A stretch of 64,000 nucleotides of DNA from Actinoallomurus bryophytorum (GTDB lineage Bacteria > Actinomycetota > Actinomycetes > Streptosporangiales > Streptosporangiaceae), in the NCBI RefSeq assembly GCF_006716425.1, contig NZ_VFOZ01000002.1, positions 930,001-994,000 of the forward strand, read 5' to 3'. Below, in pieces: positions 7,590 through 16,035 of this stretch. Both the position numbers and the translations under genes were made by a program. Under the pieces are notes generated by a model, which did not search any database, was not told the origin of the DNA, and worked only from the letters and a program-made list of their open reading frames with translations. Each line of letters starts with the position of its first letter. Position 1 is the stretch's first letter.

Positions 7590-7619
7590 TCACGTCGGCG
7601 GGATACGGCGGATGGGCAT
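7590..7619 (-). other. Possible 9-codon leader ORF upstream of lysozyme
   Basis: In the 366-bp gap upstream of the lysozyme an ATG at 7619 is preceded by GGAAGGAG and opens a frame encoding MPIRRIPPT before TGA. The same leader region contains an AT-rich block (a GATAAT-like sequence near 7690-7700) that could be the promoter. Nothing else gene-like is seen between 7521 and 7886. Whether the leader is translated is inference. Confidence 0.3.
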
Positions 7620-7886
7620 GGCTCCTTCCGGTCGTACACCACACCCGCTAGTACGTAGATATCTTGCGCGGCGGCTCAGGAAAAGGTGGAAAATTATCCC
7701 AACTATCCGGGTCGGGTTGGTAGTTCTCCCCCACGCCCCAGGTCAGCGGGGCCGGACCGCTCCCGAGGGCCGGTGAAATTGGCCGGATCCGGCAGCCTCC
7801 GGCGTGTCACACGGTGACGGCCTTATCCAGGCTGCGATGGAGAGGCGGGCCCGCGCCGACCGGGCGTACGGCGTGCCGGCGAAGTC

Positions 7887-8516
7887 TCAGCGAACTCCGC
7901 GGGGACGGAACTGGATGCTGATCCGCGGCCCCGCCGGGCGCGCGGTCTTGGGGATCGCGTGCTCCCAGGTGCGCTGGCAGCTGCCGCCCATGACGATGAG
8001 GTCGCCGTGGCCGAGGTCGTGGCGCAGCGCGTGGCCGCCGCCGCGCGGGCGGAGCAGCAGGCTGCGCGGGGCACCGACCGAGACGATCGCGACCATGGTG
8101 TCCTCGGTGCTACCGCGTCCGATGCGGTCACCGTGCCAGGCCACGCTGTCCGCGCCGTCGCGGTAGAGGCACAGTCCGGCCGTACGGAACGGCTCGCCGA
8201 GCTCGTCGGCGTAGTGCGCGCCGAGCGCCTCCCTGGCGGCGAGGAGGACGGGGTCGGGAAGCGCCTCGTCCTCGTCGTAGAACTTCAGGAGCCGCGGGAC
8301 GTCGACGACACGGTCGTACATGTGCCGCCTCTCCGCATGCCACGGCACGGTCTCGGCCAGCCGGTCGAAAAGGGTGTCGGAGCCGGTGAGCCAGCCCGGC
8401 CGCAGGTCGATCCAGGCTCCGCGGTCGAGGACCGTGCGCCGTACCGACGAGCCGAGCTCACCCAGGCCGACCTCGTCGGCACAGTCCAGCAGCGAGCCCT
8501 GGAGCGCAAGCGTCAT
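7887..8516 (-). CDS. AlkB-family 2-oxoglutarate/Fe(II) dioxygenase
   Basis: This 209-residue protein should remove alkyl lesions from nucleic acid bases by oxidative dealkylation, using 2-oxoglutarate, O2 and iron. The iron triad is His128 and Asp130 (WHGD) with His186 (WEHA). The two arginines of the family's RxxxxxR signature are Arg198 and Arg204. DRIGRGS and SVGAPR blocks fit bacterial AlkB homologues. Length is normal. The gene is monocistronic, with gaps on both sides. Confidence 0.9.
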   Translation of the reverse strand: MTLALQGSLLDCADEVGLGELGSSVRRTVLDRGAWIDLRPGWLTGSDTLFDRLAETVPWHAERRHMYDRVVDVPRLLKFYDEDEALPDPVLLAAREALGAHYADELGEPFRTAGLCLYRDGADSVAWHGDRIGRGSTEDTMVAIVSVGAPRSLLLRPRGGGHALRHDLGHGDLIVMGGSCQRTWEHAIPKTARPAGPRISIQFRPRGVR

Positions 8517-8589
8517 GGCACCAGTGTACGCCCCAGTTCAAACAGGTGTTCGAAGACCCATGGGCTCGCGCGACCACGGCCGGGGAACG

Positions 8590-9945
8590 TCAGTGGCGGC
8601 GCGACGCGGCGAGGACCAGTCCCGCGGTCGCCGCGCCGGTGGTGAGGAGGAAGGCGATCCGAAAGCTCGCGTAGTCCGGCGACGGGCCGAGCGTGAGCGT
8701 GAGCACCGCGACGGTGACCGCCCCGGAAAGGTACTGGGACGTGGTCAGCAGCGCACCCGCCGTGCTCTGGTGCGCGGACGGCACGTCGTGCGTGCCGATG
8801 ATGAACATCGACGTGTAGATGATCCCGTGCCCGAACCCGCTGAGGACCAGCCCCGGCAGCAGGTCGGCCGCGTACGAGTCACCGTGCAGGGTGACCGCGA
8901 GCCAGAGCAGGCCGGCCGTGGCGATGGCGAACCCCGTGACGAGGGCCGTGCCGGCGCCCAACCGGCGCACGGCCCGGCCCGCCGTGGTGCCGCCCGCGGT
9001 GACCATGACGGCCAGCGGGAGGAACGCGAGCCCCGCCTCGAACGGCGTGTACCCCTTCATGGACTGCAGGAGAAGAGTGAGCAGGTAGAACTCCGAACCG
9101 ACGCTCGCCATGTAGAGCGCCGTCGCCAGCGCACCGGAACGCAGCGAGCGCGTACGCCGCAGCACGTGCTCGATCAGTACGTTGCCGGAGACCCTCTCGT
9201 TGCGGACGAACCCCGCGAACAGCGCGAGGGCGGACCCGAGGCAGACCACGGTCGGCGCGGCCGCCCAGCCGCGGTCGGAGCCGAGCGTGAGCCCGAGGAC
9301 GAGCGTGAGGACGGTGCCCGTGCCGAGCACCGAGGCAAGCATCGGGATCCGGCCCGCCGGGACGTGCTCGCGTGCGGGGCCGACCCAGACCGCCGCACCC
9401 AGTGCGCACAGCAGCGTGAGCGGGACGTTGACGTAGAACGTTAGCCGCCACGACGCCGTCGTCAGCAGACCGCCGAGGATGGCGCCGGCGGCGAGCCCCG
9501 ACGCGCCGACCGATCCCCAGACGGCGAGCGCCCTGCTGCGTTCCGGCCCCGCGGGAAAGGTCGTGCCGATGAGACCGAGCACGGCCGGCTGGAGCAGGGC
9601 CGCGCCGAGCCCCTGGGCGGCGCGCGCCGCCAGGAGGACGGTGCCGTCCTGCGCCGCGCCGCCGACCGCGCTGGCGACCCCGAACATGATGATGGCGCCG
9701 ATGAAGAGACGCGCCGCCCCGACCCGGTCCGAGAGCCGCCCGCCGACGACGAGGAACCCGGCGAACAGCACCGCGTACGCGCTGATGACCCACTGGGCGA
9801 GCGCCGGCGCGAGGCCCAGGTCGCCGGCGATGCTGGGCAGGGCGATATAGATGATCGAGTAGTCGAGGGCGATGAGGAACTGGGCCAGGGACAGCACGGC
9901 CAGTGTGGCGGATCGGCGCTGGGTGACCGGCGCCGCCGCTGTCAT
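8590..9945 (-). CDS. MFS transporter, DHA2 (EmrB/QacA-type) family
   Basis: This 451-residue integral membrane protein probably exports drugs or metabolites by proton antiport. It starts with a helix containing LDYSIIYIALP, the DHA2 motif region, then GGRLSDRVGAARLF (motif A) and many further hydrophobic segments consistent with 12-14 helices. ATG 9945 was chosen because the upstream codons of the open frame (to 10191) read through the region facing the broken MerR gene and look non-coding. It diverges from the MerR pseudogene, and a palindromic MerR-type site lies in between, so it was probably the target of that regulator. Confidence 0.85.
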   Translation of the reverse strand: MTAAAPVTQRRSATLAVLSLAQFLIALDYSIIYIALPSIAGDLGLAPALAQWVISAYAVLFAGFLVVGGRLSDRVGAARLFIGAIIMFGVASAVGGAAQDGTVLLAARAAQGLGAALLQPAVLGLIGTTFPAGPERSRALAVWGSVGASGLAAGAILGGLLTTASWRLTFYVNVPLTLLCALGAAVWVGPAREHVPAGRIPMLASVLGTGTVLTLVLGLTLGSDRGWAAAPTVVCLGSALALFAGFVRNERVSGNVLIEHVLRRTRSLRSGALATALYMASVGSEFYLLTLLLQSMKGYTPFEAGLAFLPLAVMVTAGGTTAGRAVRRLGAGTALVTGFAIATAGLLWLAVTLHGDSYAADLLPGLVLSGFGHGIIYTSMFIIGTHDVPSAHQSTAGALLTTSQYLSGAVTVAVLTLTLGPSPDYASFRIAFLLTTGAATAGLVLAASRRH

Positions 9946-10122
9946 AACGCTCAAGAACGTCTCCGTCGCGGGGAGAGACAGGGATCCCGCCGAGGGTACG
10001 TGCGATGGACGACGATCGGTCGGCCGAGATGCCCGAGGGCACTCGCCCGGCCGGTTCCGGCCGACGTCCGCGCGCGACATGTCTGTCCTCCACGTGAGTG
10101 GAGGGCCCTGGTCGAACATTGA

Positions 10123-10132
10123 CACTAGTGTG
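10123..10132. promoter_or_regulatory. MerR-type operator (palindromic core)
   Basis: ACACTAGTGT is a perfect 10-bp palindrome inside TTGACACTAGTGTGAAGG. That resembles the long-spacer promoters bound by MerR proteins, where the dyad sits between -35 and -10. It lies 28 bp before the start of the broken MerR gene and faces the divergent MFS gene. The site is intact although the regulator is not. Confidence 0.5.
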
Positions 10133-10159
10133 AAGGCAAGCCGGGGGAGGAGCGCCGCC

Positions 10160-10520
10160 GTGAGGATCGGTGAGATGGCCGAGCGCACCAACGTCTCGAC
10201 GGACGCGCCTGCTGCACTACTACGAAGAACAGGGCCTGCTCGCCCCCGGGCGGACGCCGAACGGCTACCGCGGCTACCCCGAGCGTCTCCTCAACCGCAT
10301 CGTGTAGATCCGCGGCCTGCTGGACGCGGGCCTGACCACCAGGATCACCGGGCAGATCCTCCCCTACCTCGATGATCCTGCACGATCCACGTCACGGACG
10401 CGACCCCGGAACTCATCGCGGACCTCGAGCGCCATCGCGAGCGGATGGACTCGCGAATCCGCTGCCTTTCCAGGAACCGCGATGCCATCAGCGCCTACCT
10501 GGACGCCGGTGCGCGACCCC
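10160..10520 (+). pseudogene. Broken MerR-family transcriptional regulator
   Basis: A GTG at 10160, preceded by GGGGGAGG, opens VRIGEMAERTNVST, a typical MerR helix-turn-helix start. After a small insertion (an extra GACG near 10201) the expected continuation HYYEEQGLLAPGRTPNGYRG appears in another frame. That frame then meets TAG at 10305-10307, continues as IRGLLDAGLTTR, and shifts again near 10375 into MDSRIRCLSRNRDAISAYL, the usual C-terminal dimer helix. Two frameshifts and one stop mean no intact regulator can be made. Confidence 0.8.
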
Positions 10521-10544
10521 AGCCCAGGACCGCACCACCGGCAC

Positions 10545-10672
10545 CGATCTGTACCTCCGAGCTGAGAAGTCCGGGCCGCGTTCGCCTCCGATCTGCCCGC
10601 CGCCACCACCCGACTTATGGAGGTCAAGCAGCGCGTCGCCGACGAGGAGCGATGCCCTTCGATCGTGTGCCT
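10545..10672 (+). pseudogene. Alpha/beta-hydrolase fragment
   Basis: A short stretch reads LYLRAEK, then after an apparent one-base loss reads AAFASDLPAATTRLMEVKQR. This resembles the cap region of small alpha/beta-fold hydrolases (the FAADLPAATARLM pattern, from memory). No nucleophile elbow or start is present. It looks like the remains of a gene once next to the MerR regulator. Confidence 0.4.
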
Positions 10673-10804
10673 CAGCTCGCCGAGGTCAGCATTCAGGTCG
10701 TTCAGGAGCACGTTTGCAAGGCACGCTCTCAGCCGACAGAGACCGGCGGGAGCGTGAAGACCGAAACCCCCACAACGAGGGTTCCGCGCCGATGCCGACA
10801 CTGA

Positions 10805-10884
10805 GCGGGTGACGGGAATCGAACCCGCGCTATCAGCGGGGGAAGTCGGCACCGCCAACCGGTACCACTGACCTGCATCCCGTC
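10805..10884 (-). tRNA. Degenerate tRNA-Gly (pseudo-tRNA or att-site scar)
   Basis: On the minus strand, GCGGGTTCGATTCCCGT is a normal T-arm and is followed by CACCCGC, exactly the 3' half of an actinobacterial tRNA-Gly. The 5' part (GACGGGATG, GTCAGTGGTA) resembles tRNA-Gly with small insertions, and ACTTCCC lies where the UCC anticodon loop would be. The 5' end does not pair properly with the 3' acceptor strand. It is therefore best read as a decayed tRNA-Gly or an integration scar bordering the low-GC island. Confidence 0.55.
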
Positions 10885-11029
10885 AGCGACGGTAATCGCT
10901 CCAACCCTTACATACAATGTCGTGGCCGGCATCAAGGCAGGCGCGATCGCGGACCGCTTGATCCATGGATAGAGACAGGTCGATTTTAGTAAGTTGGACG
11001 CGGCAAGACGAGTAACGAGACCGCCATTG

Positions 11030-13312
11030 CTAAAAACCGGTCCAGTCGGCCAGTTGGCGGTACTCCGCGTTAGACCGTGGCGCCGCTCCGTTGCAGCACG
11101 TTTCCCGCGAAACCCGGCCCAGGTCATCAAAGTCGATGCCGATACCTGCGGTGCGAAGCACGCCGAACTCGCGGTCCACCGTGTTGCCAAAGATCAGAGG
11201 GTCATCCGAGCTAACGCTTACCGCCAGACCGTCCTGCTGCCAGCGGGCGATCGGCAGGTAGCGGGCCGACGGCAGGCCAGCTAGGCGCATGTTGGAGGTG
11301 GGGCAGGACTCGACCACGACGCCCGCTTCCCGGCCAGCCGCAAGCGTGCGGCGCAGTCCGGCGGCGACCGGTTCTTCATATCGTTCGCAGAATTGGCGGA
11401 AGCGTGACGCGAGGCCAGGACCTGCCGGCCGTTCCAGCCAATGCAGCGCCTTCGGTCCGCCGTGGGTCAAGAAGACGAGCGCGCGGCCGACTGGGCTCAT
11501 CCAGTCGGGGTGAAATGCCTTCAGGGCCGTTGGCGGGTCGTTGATCTGTGCAGCCAGACGCCTGGGCGTCTCACCCTGCAAGTGCAGTCGGTAACCGCCG
11601 ATATCGCGGCGCGCCAGCCACGCAGCCAGCAGGCTGTCCGAGTCCACGTCGTACATGGCTAGGCCCGACTCGCCCACTAGGTCGTCGAGGAGTTCGCGAG
11701 CGCCATTGGCGAAGTCGTCGCCGAGCGACAGATATGGTGCCACCTCTGAGAGCCAACAGAGGTCCTCAAGGACAGCCCGTCGGTGCAGCTCGCGTGGCCA
11801 GCGGGGGGCCACGAATTCAGCGACCGTCGCGTCCAGGGCAAGCCCATGACCGATTCGGTCGACCACTCGGTCTGGAAAGATCAGCTCGCCCACACTTCGG
11901 AGGCCCTGCATCCGCCAGAGGAACGATTCCCCGGCATGGCTGTTGGTCACCAGCCCGTGCGGCAGGGCACGTAGGTATTTTAGGAGTGGTACGAACACCC
12001 AATTCGGGGTGGTCAGTTCGTCACCGACAACGTCCACGGCAGTTAGCATGGACCGGACGGGCTCATGTTGCTCAAGCAGTCCCTCGATGGCGAGCGCCAA
12101 ATTCCAGTAACGCGCGAAGTCGTACAAGAGGTAGGGCGCTTGGGCAGATCCGGACCAGTCGCCCTGCCGGAGGAAGGTCATCGGGACCGACAAAGCACGA
12201 GCACGTTCGGCCACGGCCGCACTACGCGAGAAGCCGCTTAAATGGCTCCTAAGGCTACTCAAGATCTTCTTTTCGAGACTGGCGGGAGTCGAGAACGGTT
12301 GGACGGTCACTGACTTGCGGAACTCAGCCGAGGACACCCGTGGCGAGTGCATAACATTGTCTACCGCCCCAGCGAACGCGAGCCCCTTGAGTTCGCTGAT
12401 AGCACCGTCGCGTAGCAGTCCCATTTGCTCGAATCGGTCGACGAATATCGGCAATCCTTCGCCAGGACGTGCGCGCAGGAACCTCGTCAAATGTGTGCAT
12501 GCGATGATCAAACCGCTTAGAAGGTCGCCGTCCTCCAGCACCTCAGCGTCGGCGAATTCCTTAAGCTTGGCGCGGATCAGGTCGGCTGGTGAGTCGATCA
12601 CTGGCCAGTGCGGCGCGGCTTCCTCTAGGACCTCCCAGGTTAGCCCCGACACTGAGTCCGGCGAATCGGTAGGGTAACGCGAAACCGATAAGGCGAGTTC
12701 GGTCACCTCGCGCCAGTACCGCCCGACCCGGATCGATTCGAGGATCACCGGCTCGAGATCGATCAGCCCGCCGCTGCGGACGTAATTCAGGTAGATGATG
12801 GCGACGCGGATCCCGTAGATCAGCGCGGCAATTGCGAACGGCTGCCCCACACCGTCATGCGCCGAGAGTTCGCGCATTCCCTTGTCAGTGGTGCGGGCGT
12901 TAACGGTCAGGCCGAGCAAGGTGAGCAAACCCATCGACGCGCCCGAGTGCAGGTGCGAGTCGGCCAGATCGATGTCGAGCTCCGCAGGGTTAATCGCGCT
13001 GTTGTCGCTGCGGTCGGTGAGAAGCTCGAACGGGAACATAAAATCGAGGTCATACCGTTCGTAGTTGGTGGCGACCGCGCATAGCTTGAGATGGTTGTAC
13101 TCGGTGCTATCAAGCTGCTCGGCAATGCGGGTTGGCAGATCGTGTCCCACCCCGACCAGCTCGCCTCGGCCCATCCGAGCTAGTTCGAAATGGCTCCGAT
13201 CGGAGCCGTTCAGCAACGCCGCCTTGGCAAGTTCGTATCCACTGAGGCCGAGCCATTCGATTCGCTGCGCCATATGGGCCGCGAGGAACGCAGCGATCTG
13301 AGGGTCGGTCAT
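11030..13312 (-). CDS. rdrB: RADAR-type divergent adenosine deaminase (RdrB-like)
   Basis: This 760-residue protein carries the metal and catalytic landmarks of adenosine deaminases spread over an unusually long chain. They are HxH at 120-122 (SHLHSG), NSHAGES with His459 and Glu462, RIGHG with His489, SCPTSNMRL at 669-677 and SSDDP with Asp703-Asp704. In RADAR systems such a deaminase assembles with the RdrA ATPase and deaminates adenine nucleotides or RNA in infected cells. It is the last gene of a three-gene minus-strand operon, and its ATG overlaps the ATPase stop by 4 bp. Codon use is less G/C-biased than the surrounding chromosome, suggesting acquisition. A role outside defence cannot be excluded from sequence alone. 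Confidence 0.8.
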   Translation of the reverse strand: MTDPQIAAFLAAHMAQRIEWLGLSGYELAKAALLNGSDRSHFELARMGRGELVGVGHDLPTRIAEQLDSTEYNHLKLCAVATNYERYDLDFMFPFELLTDRSDNSAINPAELDIDLADSHLHSGASMGLLTLLGLTVNARTTDKGMRELSAHDGVGQPFAIAALIYGIRVAIIYLNYVRSGGLIDLEPVILESIRVGRYWREVTELALSVSRYPTDSPDSVSGLTWEVLEEAAPHWPVIDSPADLIRAKLKEFADAEVLEDGDLLSGLIIACTHLTRFLRARPGEGLPIFVDRFEQMGLLRDGAISELKGLAFAGAVDNVMHSPRVSSAEFRKSVTVQPFSTPASLEKKILSSLRSHLSGFSRSAAVAERARALSVPMTFLRQGDWSGSAQAPYLLYDFARYWNLALAIEGLLEQHEPVRSMLTAVDVVGDELTTPNWVFVPLLKYLRALPHGLVTNSHAGESFLWRMQGLRSVGELIFPDRVVDRIGHGLALDATVAEFVAPRWPRELHRRAVLEDLCWLSEVAPYLSLGDDFANGARELLDDLVGESGLAMYDVDSDSLLAAWLARRDIGGYRLHLQGETPRRLAAQINDPPTALKAFHPDWMSPVGRALVFLTHGGPKALHWLERPAGPGLASRFRQFCERYEEPVAAGLRRTLAAGREAGVVVESCPTSNMRLAGLPSARYLPIARWQQDGLAVSVSSDDPLIFGNTVDREFGVLRTAGIGIDFDDLGRVSRETCCNGAAPRSNAEYRQLADWTGF

Positions 13313-15642
13313 TGGCGGAGCTCCGCCATAATCGTGGAGATCAGTGCGAGGTTAGCGGTACCCGTGTCGTTGGCCCGCGCAGCGTACTCGTAATTGCCCC
13401 GCCTGTCGGTGATGTCGACGGACTCGCTTGTCGTCGCCCTGCCCAGCGCGCTGCGGGCACGGCGCTTGTCATAGTCACCGGTCAGCGGCTCTACAAGAGA
13501 GAGCAGTTCCTCGCTGACGTACTCCAACAGTTGCCGATAGCCGACCAGCCATAGACCATCATTGCCGGGGCGCTGCGGCGGGTTCATGTTTTTTGTGACC
13601 CGATCACGGAACAGCTGCCGCAGCTCCTCTAGGGCACGCGATGATCGCCCGCCTCGCGTCAGCGTGGCCGACCAGTTCGCGATGATCCACTTCAGCGGTT
13701 CTGATGCGATGAACAGCTCGTTGAAGCAGCGAGGCAGCGTCATCTCATACCAGTAGCAGAATGCTTTTCCGGGACTGTAGTCATCAAAAACCAGAGAGTT
13801 GCGCTTGAACTCGGCGACGTACTGCAGATATCGCACGCCTGCCCGATCGACCGCCTCGGCCAGCGTGGGCAGCGATGCCCCTGGTCCGATGTCCTCGCCA
13901 TCCAACCACATCGTGGTAACCAGGCCGATATAGTCGGTGATCAACCGCTCGTAGTTATTCCAGGCCGCCCAACTCTGCTGGGTGCGTAGTACGAGCGCGT
14001 TCCATGTCTTCTGCGAACGGCTCAGATATGTCGCACCATAGGAAATCGGGATGCTAAGAAAGAGATCGTCAGTGTCCTGCTGCAGGAGTTTGATCTCCTG
14101 GAGATAGCTGAAGTCGCTGACAATCAGATGAGCCGGGCCGGTCGGCCGCCGTGGCTGGAATGCGGAGAGTCGAAATAGGTCTTCGATAAACAAGGCGCTG
14201 GCCACATCGGCGAACGGAATTTCGACCGCACCGTTACCCGCCTGACCCTGACCGGGCCCGTCGCTGCCAACGTCACCGACCGGACCGCCAAACCGTCGCA
14301 GGCGAATTTTTCCAAGTGGCTCATCGATCGTATTTGTCCACATCCCTATTGGCCGCACCGATAGATTGAGTTTGGTCCAAGCCGCCGAGGCTTTAACAGA
14401 CACTGGCACCCCCTTGCGGGCCGACTCGACCGACTCGATGTCCAGGCGCACTCCGTATTCCGCATCCTGCGCAACAATATCGACGAAGTGCTTGAGCCAC
14501 GGTGAGATACTGGGTGTATCGTTGTTGCGCAGAGCCCGCACTAGCTGATCGGAGACCCGCCAAAGGTTCTGCAGCCGCCGCGGCGTCTCAGGCAGCCAGG
14601 AGATGCCAGTCACAGGTTCCTCTAAATGAGGGTCGGACGCCTGCGAGAGAAACGTGACGAGCTCCTCGGCCGTCCCGCCATTGGGATCGAGCCGCCGGAA
14701 GATTTCGAACAGCAGATCGGACAGCGGTACCGTCTCGCCGATAGGTGTGAAAGCCATTCGGCGCTCATAGCGGAGGTACGGCGGAGAGACAGTACGCGCC
14801 GGGCTAATCAGCTTGTCGATCTGCCGCACCGCCAGTCTTTCGGCGTGTGCGCCGGAGACCGAAACACCGAAGTCATGCACTAGGTCGGCAGTCAGATGCA
14901 CCCGCAAGTCGTCGCGGAACATGCAAACTACCGGCGCGACGCCTCCTACCGACAGGATGATTCGCAGGTCCTCCATGATTTCCCGGGTGCGCCGCGGCAC
15001 TAGATCACCGTCGTCGATCGGGATGACGACGATGGCGTCACGGTCACGATTGGCCACCTCGCGCAGGAGCCGCATCAGCGCGGCCACGCTAGGCACGAGG
15101 TTTTCCTGGAATGAGAGCAGACCCTCGCTGTCTAAGGCGTACTGAGTGAGCGAGGCAGTTCGGAGGGTGTTGGCGAGCACGGGCCGGCCGGTGGCCAGCA
15201 CCGCTGCGCGGAACGCCCGCTGGACCACGCTGGATACCTGGGTCACGTCGCTGGTCTTCTCGCCGCGCCCGTCCAGGCAGGCCTCGATCATCGTCCGGAC
15301 GTGGCTCACAATGATCGACAGCAGCGAGTCGGAGGCGCGGAACATTTCCGGCCGAATCAACGGCAGCACGATGTACTTCTGATCACTGAGGAGTTCAACG
15401 CACAGCGCCATGAGCAGCGTCGTCTTCCCGGAGCCCCGAGCGCCAGAGATGCCGACGACCGATTCGTCCTCGAGATTGGTCCCCCGGGCGAAGGCCGCCC
15501 TGACCGGATCATCGTCGATTTTGACCCGCCGCGGAGGGGTCACATCCCCGAGTAGGTCGCGCAGTGCCGACACCACGTCCCGGACGCCATCCGGAATTGC
15601 GGCGTCGCCCTCCATGAAGGCACGACTCGCATGCTCAGTCAC
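13309..15642 (-). CDS. rdrA: RADAR-type P-loop ATPase (RdrA-like)
   Basis: This protein of about 777 residues has a Walker A GARGSGKT about 65-75 residues from the start and a hydrophobic Walker B strand VVIPIDDGD about 140 residues later. A long C-terminal half of unrecognised folds follows. An ATPase of this size directly upstream of, and overlapping, an adenosine-deaminase-like gene is the RADAR rdrA-rdrB arrangement. There the ATPase is thought to sense infection and activate or load the deaminase. The start is uncertain: GTG 15663, GTG 15642 (8-bp overlap with the preceding stop, chosen here) or ATG 15615 are all in frame. GC content is lower than in neighbouring chromosomal genes. Confidence 0.75.
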   Translation of the reverse strand: MTEHASRAFMEGDAAIPDGVRDVVSALRDLLGDVTPPRRVKIDDDPVRAAFARGTNLEDESVVGISGARGSGKTTLLMALCVELLSDQKYIVLPLIRPEMFRASDSLLSIIVSHVRTMIEACLDGRGEKTSDVTQVSSVVQRAFRAAVLATGRPVLANTLRTASLTQYALDSEGLLSFQENLVPSVAALMRLLREVANRDRDAIVVIPIDDGDLVPRRTREIMEDLRIILSVGGVAPVVCMFRDDLRVHLTADLVHDFGVSVSGAHAERLAVRQIDKLISPARTVSPPYLRYERRMAFTPIGETVPLSDLLFEIFRRLDPNGGTAEELVTFLSQASDPHLEEPVTGISWLPETPRRLQNLWRVSDQLVRALRNNDTPSISPWLKHFVDIVAQDAEYGVRLDIESVESARKGVPVSVKASAAWTKLNLSVRPIGMWTNTIDEPLGKIRLRRFGGPVGDVGSDGPGQGQAGNGAVEIPFADVASALFIEDLFRLSAFQPRRPTGPAHLIVSDFSYLQEIKLLQQDTDDLFLSIPISYGATYLSRSQKTWNALVLRTQQSWAAWNNYERLITDYIGLVTTMWLDGEDIGPGASLPTLAEAVDRAGVRYLQYVAEFKRNSLVFDDYSPGKAFCYWYEMTLPRCFNELFIASEPLKWIIANWSATLTRGGRSSRALEELRQLFRDRVTKNMNPPQRPGNDGLWLVGYRQLLEYVSEELLSLVEPLTGDYDKRRARSALGRATTSESVDITDRRGNYEYAARANDTGTANLALISTIMAELRQ

Positions 15643-15940
15643 GGGCACCAGCTTCAATCGCACCGTTCAGACGCTCGATGATCAACTGATACTCCTCATG
15701 GACGACCTCGCGATAGTTGGGGGAGTTGTCGTCTAGCCAGCCGAGGGCGGCCCGCTCATCGTTCGCTGAGATATGCTTTTCGAACTGGGCTAGCTGTACC
15801 TGGGTCAGCTTGTTCGCGAGGCGTCTTCCGACCCGCAATTCGAGTGTGTTGTAAATGTCTTGTAGCGCCAAGCGGACTTGTTCTTCCGTCATGTTGACGA
15901 AGCCTGCGTCACTTAGCAGCTCGGGACTCAGCGTAATCAT
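15635..15940 (-). CDS. Small DUF5663-like protein, first gene of the RADAR-like operon
   Basis: This 101-residue acidic, helical protein has the pattern I associate with DUF5663: a start like LSPELLSDAGF, a central YNTLELRVGRRLANKL, then QFEKHI and a WLDDNSPNYREVV ending. ATG 15940 is preferred because AAGG lies 8 bp upstream. A GTG at 15946 is possible. It overlaps the ATPase gene and should be co-translated with it. The family has no function that I know of. RADAR loci sometimes carry accessory membrane genes, but this protein has no membrane segment. Its position suggests an accessory, chaperone or inhibitor subunit. Confidence 0.7.
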   Translation of the reverse strand: MITLSPELLSDAGFVNMTEEQVRLALQDIYNTLELRVGRRLANKLTQVQLAQFEKHISANDERAALGWLDDNSPNYREVVHEEYQLIIERLNGAIEAGARD

Positions 15941-16035
15941 GAACACTACCTTCGAAAGTTCCTATCGTGACGATCCAAGCCTCATCGGTCGATAGTCGTC
16001 GAACCAGAGGCATCAACGCTCCCCTGCCGGCAACG

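Follow-up and report, generated by a model that had tools for sequence, protein, structure and literature searches.

The window, by which we mean the whole 64,000-nucleotide stretch of DNA analysed, is actinobacterial with 70% G+C and belongs to contig C2 of a 9.47-Mb genome. Three overlapping ORFs on its minus strand form an operon in the order DUF5663, RdrA-like and RdrB-like. The features of the locus are as follows.

15635-15940, minus strand: DUF5663 gene, ATG start, 101 amino acids (aa), first gene of the operon
13309-15663, minus strand: gene of the RdrA-like AAA+ ATPase, GTG start, 784 aa
11030-13312, minus strand: gene of the RdrB-like adenosine deaminase, 760 aa
10300-16990: low-G+C island around the operon, G+C about 0.55-0.66 versus 0.70-0.73 in the flanks
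10803-10828, minus strand: 26-bp copy of the tRNA-Gly(CCC) 3' end, exact 26-mer match

An in-frame GTG at 15946 is a possible alternative start of the DUF5663 gene (103 aa), and the ATPase may start at a downstream GTG at 15642 instead of the GTG at 15663, which gives the 777 residues reported in an earlier note on this DNA. According to the GTG chosen, the DUF5663 and ATPase genes overlap by 29 or 8 bp, and the ATPase and deaminase genes overlap by 4 bp. The ORF coordinates confirmed the three overlapping minus-strand genes of the earlier note, and all of its motifs (GARGSGKT, IDDGD, SHLHSG, SHAGES, RIGHG, SSDDP) were found. Its assignment of the small gene to DUF5663 agrees with the Pfam match of the 101-aa protein (PF18908, 60 bits, E 3.4e-16, gathering cut-off 23.7 bits). 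The deaminase matches A_deaminase (59 bits, E 5.6e-16) and the ATPase matches P-loop NTPase models. The GC3 values of the trio are 0.68-0.74, compared with 0.90-0.95 in host and neighbour genes. The ORFs are not due to chance, since the frames are long and open despite the atypical GC3 and two other genomes carry the trio as well. Within the island, a frameshifted stretch on the plus strand (10300-10500), beside an MFS gene, resembles by eye the remains of a transcriptional regulator.

The deaminase was aligned with seven plasmid-borne RdrBs as the reference set. The zinc tetrad (H120, H122, H459, and H489), the catalytic E462 and the Asp pair (D703 and D704) are invariant in this alignment, so that the zinc site, the loss of which would have counted against the earlier note, is intact. 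The first five residues correspond to H152, H154, H498, H530, and E501 of E. coli RdrB, which are its zinc tetrad and catalytic Glu (PMC9994260). They lie in the motifs SHLHSG at 119, SHAGES around H459 and RIGHG at 486, and the Asp pair lies in SSDDP. Comparison of the deaminase with the seven RdrBs by hhalign gave a probability of 99.3 and an E-value of 7e-21 over residues 265-724. Both long inserts of the RdrB type are present, with 339 residues separating HxH from HAGE and about 180 separating GH from CPTSN, and the RdrB medians of the HxH-HAGE and GH-PTSN inserts are 384 and 187 residues, respectively. In the ordinary adenosine deaminase (ADA) compared, both stretches are far shorter and the GH-CPTSN one is below 30 residues. 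The identity to the RdrBs is 17-21%, while one canonical RdrB shares 19-32% with the other six. Judged by profile, residues and insert spacing, the deaminase is RdrB-like.

On the NCBIfam models (NF041743/NF041744), whose equivalog cut-offs are 600 bits for RdrA and 800 bits for RdrB, the ATPase and the deaminase of the window score 25.3 and 42.8 bits, respectively. The RADAR proteins of Pantoea plasmid pPAT9B05 (locus L010, 1377-6640) score 127.8 bits for RdrA and 114.6 bits for RdrB, and over the 118 aa compared, this RdrB shares 94% identity with that of E. coli. Because the Pantoea pair falls far below the cut-offs, these turn away bona fide RADAR proteins and do not discriminate RADAR from other systems.

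The ATPase contains the Walker A motif GARGSGKT at 74 and IDDGD at 216. Aligned with 24 RdrAs (25 sequences in all), it shares R76, G77, G79, K80, D217, D218, and D220 with every one of them, and G74, P105, K284, and R362 with nearly all. Therefore, the catalytic set of an AAA+ protein is kept, comprising Walker A (R76-K80), Walker B (D217, D218, and D220) and R362 at the position of the sensor-2 Arg. The identity to RdrAs is 14-17%, and the hhalign match to RdrA (probability 96, E 4e-9) spans the AAA+ domain only. The AAA+ core is modelled well by AlphaFold, with three long helices (114-131, 138-166, and 172-203) between the strands 97-99 and 211-216 (Walker B). This is the position of the RdrA crown, a helical insertion following strands 2 and 3 that docks on RdrB (PMC9994260). 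The C-terminal half is helical in the model, with pLDDT below 50 over much of 402-784. In a Foldseek search the best 20 matches were all RdrA chains (E 5e-10 to 4e-5; next protein 7e-3) and VIA-align gave Z of 22.9 to RdrA versus 12.8 to BrxC, the best non-RdrA protein, a ranking that may be favoured by the RdrAs contained in the input alignment of the model. Profile and predicted structure support the ATPase as a relative of RdrA. Matches to PifA and mad8 were dismissed as generic P-loop matches. The view of the earlier note that the locus is a RADAR variant is in agreement with the RdrB relation by profile and the RdrA relation by profile and structure.

Relatives of this pair are sparse. 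With the deaminase as query, none was found beyond ordinary ADAs in 396 genomes of the phylum and 299 of the family, and the RdrB model found nothing but ordinary ADAs in 395 genomes of the class. A pattern scan of GTDB with the single deaminase sequence gave no match, and no relatives were found by tblastn against plasmids (deaminase and ATPase queries), by tblastn against phages (ATPase and DUF5663 queries) or in IMG/VR scans. A 763-aa frame in genome G452 looked like a relative but was rejected, being an ordinary adenosine deaminase whose frame happens to stay open upstream. When GTDB was scanned with the alignment of the deaminase and the RdrBs, 80 loci were returned. The best one, L020, carries the trio in the order of the window, with identities of 43% (DUF5663), 34% (RdrA-like), and 35% (RdrB-like). 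A third locus, L110 in genome G1047, was found in the family search with a profile of the two deaminases; its trio has the same order, overlaps of 4 bp each, and identities of 21%, 26%, and 29%, respectively. The DUF5663 Pfam scores are 53.1 bits for L020 and 22.3 bits for L110 (E 2e-4), the latter just under the cut-off of 23.7. The operon is thus conserved in the three loci found, all actinobacterial, with big proteins of 752-784 aa that are only 25-35% identical, and the small gene that the earlier note expected in related loci is present in both of the closest ones. An HMM of two DUF5663 proteins found no DUF5663-like ORF in 86 other RADAR loci, where it should be considered that some of the 87 RADAR loci are cut off upstream and that a very divergent DUF5663 could escape the HMM.

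The record of L020 (JASDDH010000007.1) is labelled Planococcus sp. (Bacillota), yet its G+C content is 65%. It is placed in the same family as G1047, with which its infC shares 80% identity; the record is probably mislabelled. An ADP-ribosylglycohydrolase gene and a weak TY-Chap2 match are located near the trio of L020, whose surroundings are possibly a defence island.

A tree of 90 deaminases groups the proteins of the window, L020 and L110 in a single branch (SH-aLRT 100), separate from 81 RdrBs and near the ordinary ADAs on long branches. Given these long branches, the clade may lie inside canonical RdrB or be its sister. Other RdrB-like proteins on long branches, from Lysobacterales (L062), Lamprocystis (L097), Myxococcota (L085), Planctomycetota (L028), Alphaproteobacteria (L041), and Armatimonadia (L094), may represent other RADAR variants.

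The trios of L020 and L110 show the same atypical GC3 contrast with their neighbours as that of the window. The L110 trio is located between infC and sseB-hisA. The gap between infC and sseB is about 0.6 kb in relatives and 5.6 kb in L110, where it is filled by the trio alone, and the three genes therefore move as one self-contained unit. In the window, the 26-bp copy of tRNA-Gly(CCC) is part of a decayed tRNA-like stretch (10803-10893, minus strand) some 200 bp beyond the stop codon of the deaminase gene, and this stretch resembles an att site or integration scar. The exact 26-mer is also found at the intact tRNA-Gly(CCC) (C1:3597566) and in a partial copy, a 3' half, 17.9 kb downstream of it (C1:3615467); the interval between the two resembles an integrated element. 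Horizontal acquisition of the operon of the window is probable and forms part of the reading given below.

Proteins with RdrA- and RdrB-like folds could also have another job, in nucleotide or nucleoside signalling, in metabolism or on a different substrate, and the 17-21% identity to the tested RADARs as well as the deep separate branch are compatible with a function other than anti-phage defence. However, the patchy distribution, the insertion as an isolated three-gene cargo, the atypical composition of the trio, and a conserved catalytic site together with an AAA+ partner bearing a crown are all typical of RADAR. We consider such a non-defence role to be improbable.

The DUF5663 protein of the window is acidic (pI 4.7) and soluble by prediction, with no transmembrane-like stretch. 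Its AF2 model consists of five helices (pLDDT 75), for which no PDB fold match with E below 1 was found. Among 395 Actinomycetes genomes the domain occurs in 4, and among 286 genomes drawn from the phylum it occurs in that of the window only; owing to this rarity, a chance linkage is implausible. In E. coli, C. rodentium, and S. suis, RADAR works with two genes (PMC9994260), and DUF5663 might accordingly be a hitch-hiking neighbour of an ordinary two-gene system. This is very improbable for a domain that is so rare and yet heads all three loci of the clade, overlaps rdrA and persists across identities of 21-43%. In agreement with the earlier note, which knew of no report linking DUF5663 to RADAR, no mention of DUF5663 was found in the literature searched, including papers on RADAR, RdrA and RdrB.

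A P-loop NTPase is the fusion partner or neighbour of DUF5663 in every actinobacterial case seen. The cases other than the trio are the following.

L105: stand-alone DUF5663 gene overlapping the end of the gene of a 1004-aa GLGGIGKT-TPR protein (NACHT/STAND-like by eye)
L106, 9232-13479, minus strand: DUF5663 at the C-terminus of a 1415-aa HerA/TrwB-like NTPase
L107 (G838:C3:4101000-4119500), 7600-13326, minus strand: 1908-aa trypsin-NACHT-DUF5663-TPR protein
L111 (Rhodococcus ruber plasmid pYYL1.1), 6589-9267: stand-alone DUF5663 directly after a DUF87/HerA-like NTPase

A DUF4760 gene adjoins the fusion gene of L106, and in L107 the domain lies inside a predicted conflict-type NTPase. The occurrence of HerA and DUF5663 in both fused and split forms suggests that DUF5663 has the NTPase as its physical partner. 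The main rival explanation is that DUF5663 is an antitoxin-like inhibitor or chaperone of the deaminase, silencing it in uninfected cells. It is small, acidic and helical, its gene comes first in translation, in coupling with the operon, and a silencer would be useful because overexpression of RdrB in E. coli without phage led to ITP accumulation and toxicity (PMC9994260). Elsewhere in actinobacteria, however, DUF5663 is found with NTPases but no deaminase (NACHT-TPR, trypsin-NACHT-TPR, and HerA), which points to the NTPase as its partner, and we regard a silencer of the deaminase as rather unlikely.

Our preferred reading, to which we assign a probability of about 0.72, is that the operon encodes a compact anti-phage system of the RADAR type, acquired by horizontal transfer and deeply diverged, with the three conserved genes DUF5663-rdrA-rdrB. 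In the characterised RADAR, RdrA rings dock on the RdrB shell via the crown, and (d)ATP is converted to (d)ITP during infection (PMC9994260). The earlier note had described the activity of RADAR as adenine deamination, which is to be read as mainly that of the mononucleotides (d)ATP (PMC9994260). Both the catalytic and the crown features are retained in the proteins of the window, which makes an identical chemistry and assembly most likely. By analogy with the characterised system, in which an RdrA heptamer and an RdrB dodecamer assemble, the RdrA-like AAA+ protein would form a ring and dock via its helical crown on a multimeric RdrB-like deaminase. When phage infection is sensed, the deaminase would turn ATP and dATP into ITP and dITP, which would poison the nucleotide pool and stop the growth of the phage and probably of the cell. 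Judging from its genomic context, the most likely target of the DUF5663 protein is the ATPase, to whose ring it would be bound as an adaptor or regulator, and the protein may either couple the infection signal to RdrA or keep RdrA inactive until infection. A further-reaching idea, which we put forward tentatively and at less than even odds, is that DUF5663 is a shared sensor/adaptor that plugs into RADAR-like, NACHT-TPR, trypsin-NACHT-TPR and HerA-type machines, all of them NTPase-centred immune machines of actinobacteria that are otherwise unrelated, and that in the RADAR branch it is the missing trigger-recognition subunit.

The new element is a RADAR branch of actinobacteria with DUF5663 as a putative third subunit, unreported in the literature searched. 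The trigger of RADAR was stated as an open limitation (PMC9994260), and a branch whose small third subunit looks obligate gives a handle on its regulation. If DUF5663 is the trigger-recognition subunit, the activation signal of RdrA could be found through it. The domain also gains a testable class of partners, namely P-loop NTPases of defence-like systems. As the branch is matched weakly by the NCBIfam cut-offs and PADLOC scores, RADAR is probably under-counted in actinobacteria.

Several known systems share features with the operon. Cad1 (PMC11645235), which converts ATP to ITP, is a large defence enzyme of the ADA fold and resembles the deaminase in this respect. No CARF domain was detected in the deaminase, and the CARF-ADA model of PADLOC matched its ADA C-terminal part only (18.6 bits). 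Effector-associated domains (EADs) of NTPase-centred conflict systems, which are defined by homotypic pairwise coupling (PMC7159879), are, like DUF5663, small, helical and non-enzymatic, and occur in actinobacteria both as stand-alone proteins (for DUF5663, the window, L105, and R. ruber) and fused to NTPases (L106 and L107). The genomes of the window and of L020 each have a single DUF5663 copy, leaving no second copy for homotypic pairing, and the assignment as an EAD was rejected even though DUF5663 has an adaptor-like architecture.

In some RADAR variants only, a SLATT/Csx27 membrane accessory is present (PMC11676413), and these have a small third gene beside rdrAB as in the window. In contrast to this accessory, DUF5663 is soluble, helical and acidic, and it precedes rdrA, whereas the SLATT gene follows rdrB in L013. 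No membrane-protein gene was found in the three DUF5663 operons, so in gene content DUF5663 does stand in place of the membrane accessory, as the earlier note had proposed. Compared with RADAR in general, the clade is actinobacterial and compact (752-784 aa versus mostly 800-1100 aa), its operon is led by DUF5663, it forms a deep branch of its own, and its identities are 17-21% for the deaminase and 14-17% for the ATPase. The common features are the sparse distribution, the G.RG.GKT Walker A motif with the extra Arg, the IDD.D Walker B motif, the sensor-2 Arg, the crown-like insertion, and, in the deaminase, the zinc tetrad, the catalytic Glu, the DD motif, and both large inserts. The order of the ATPase followed by the deaminase is the same in E. 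coli, C. rodentium, S. suis, L020, L110, and the window.
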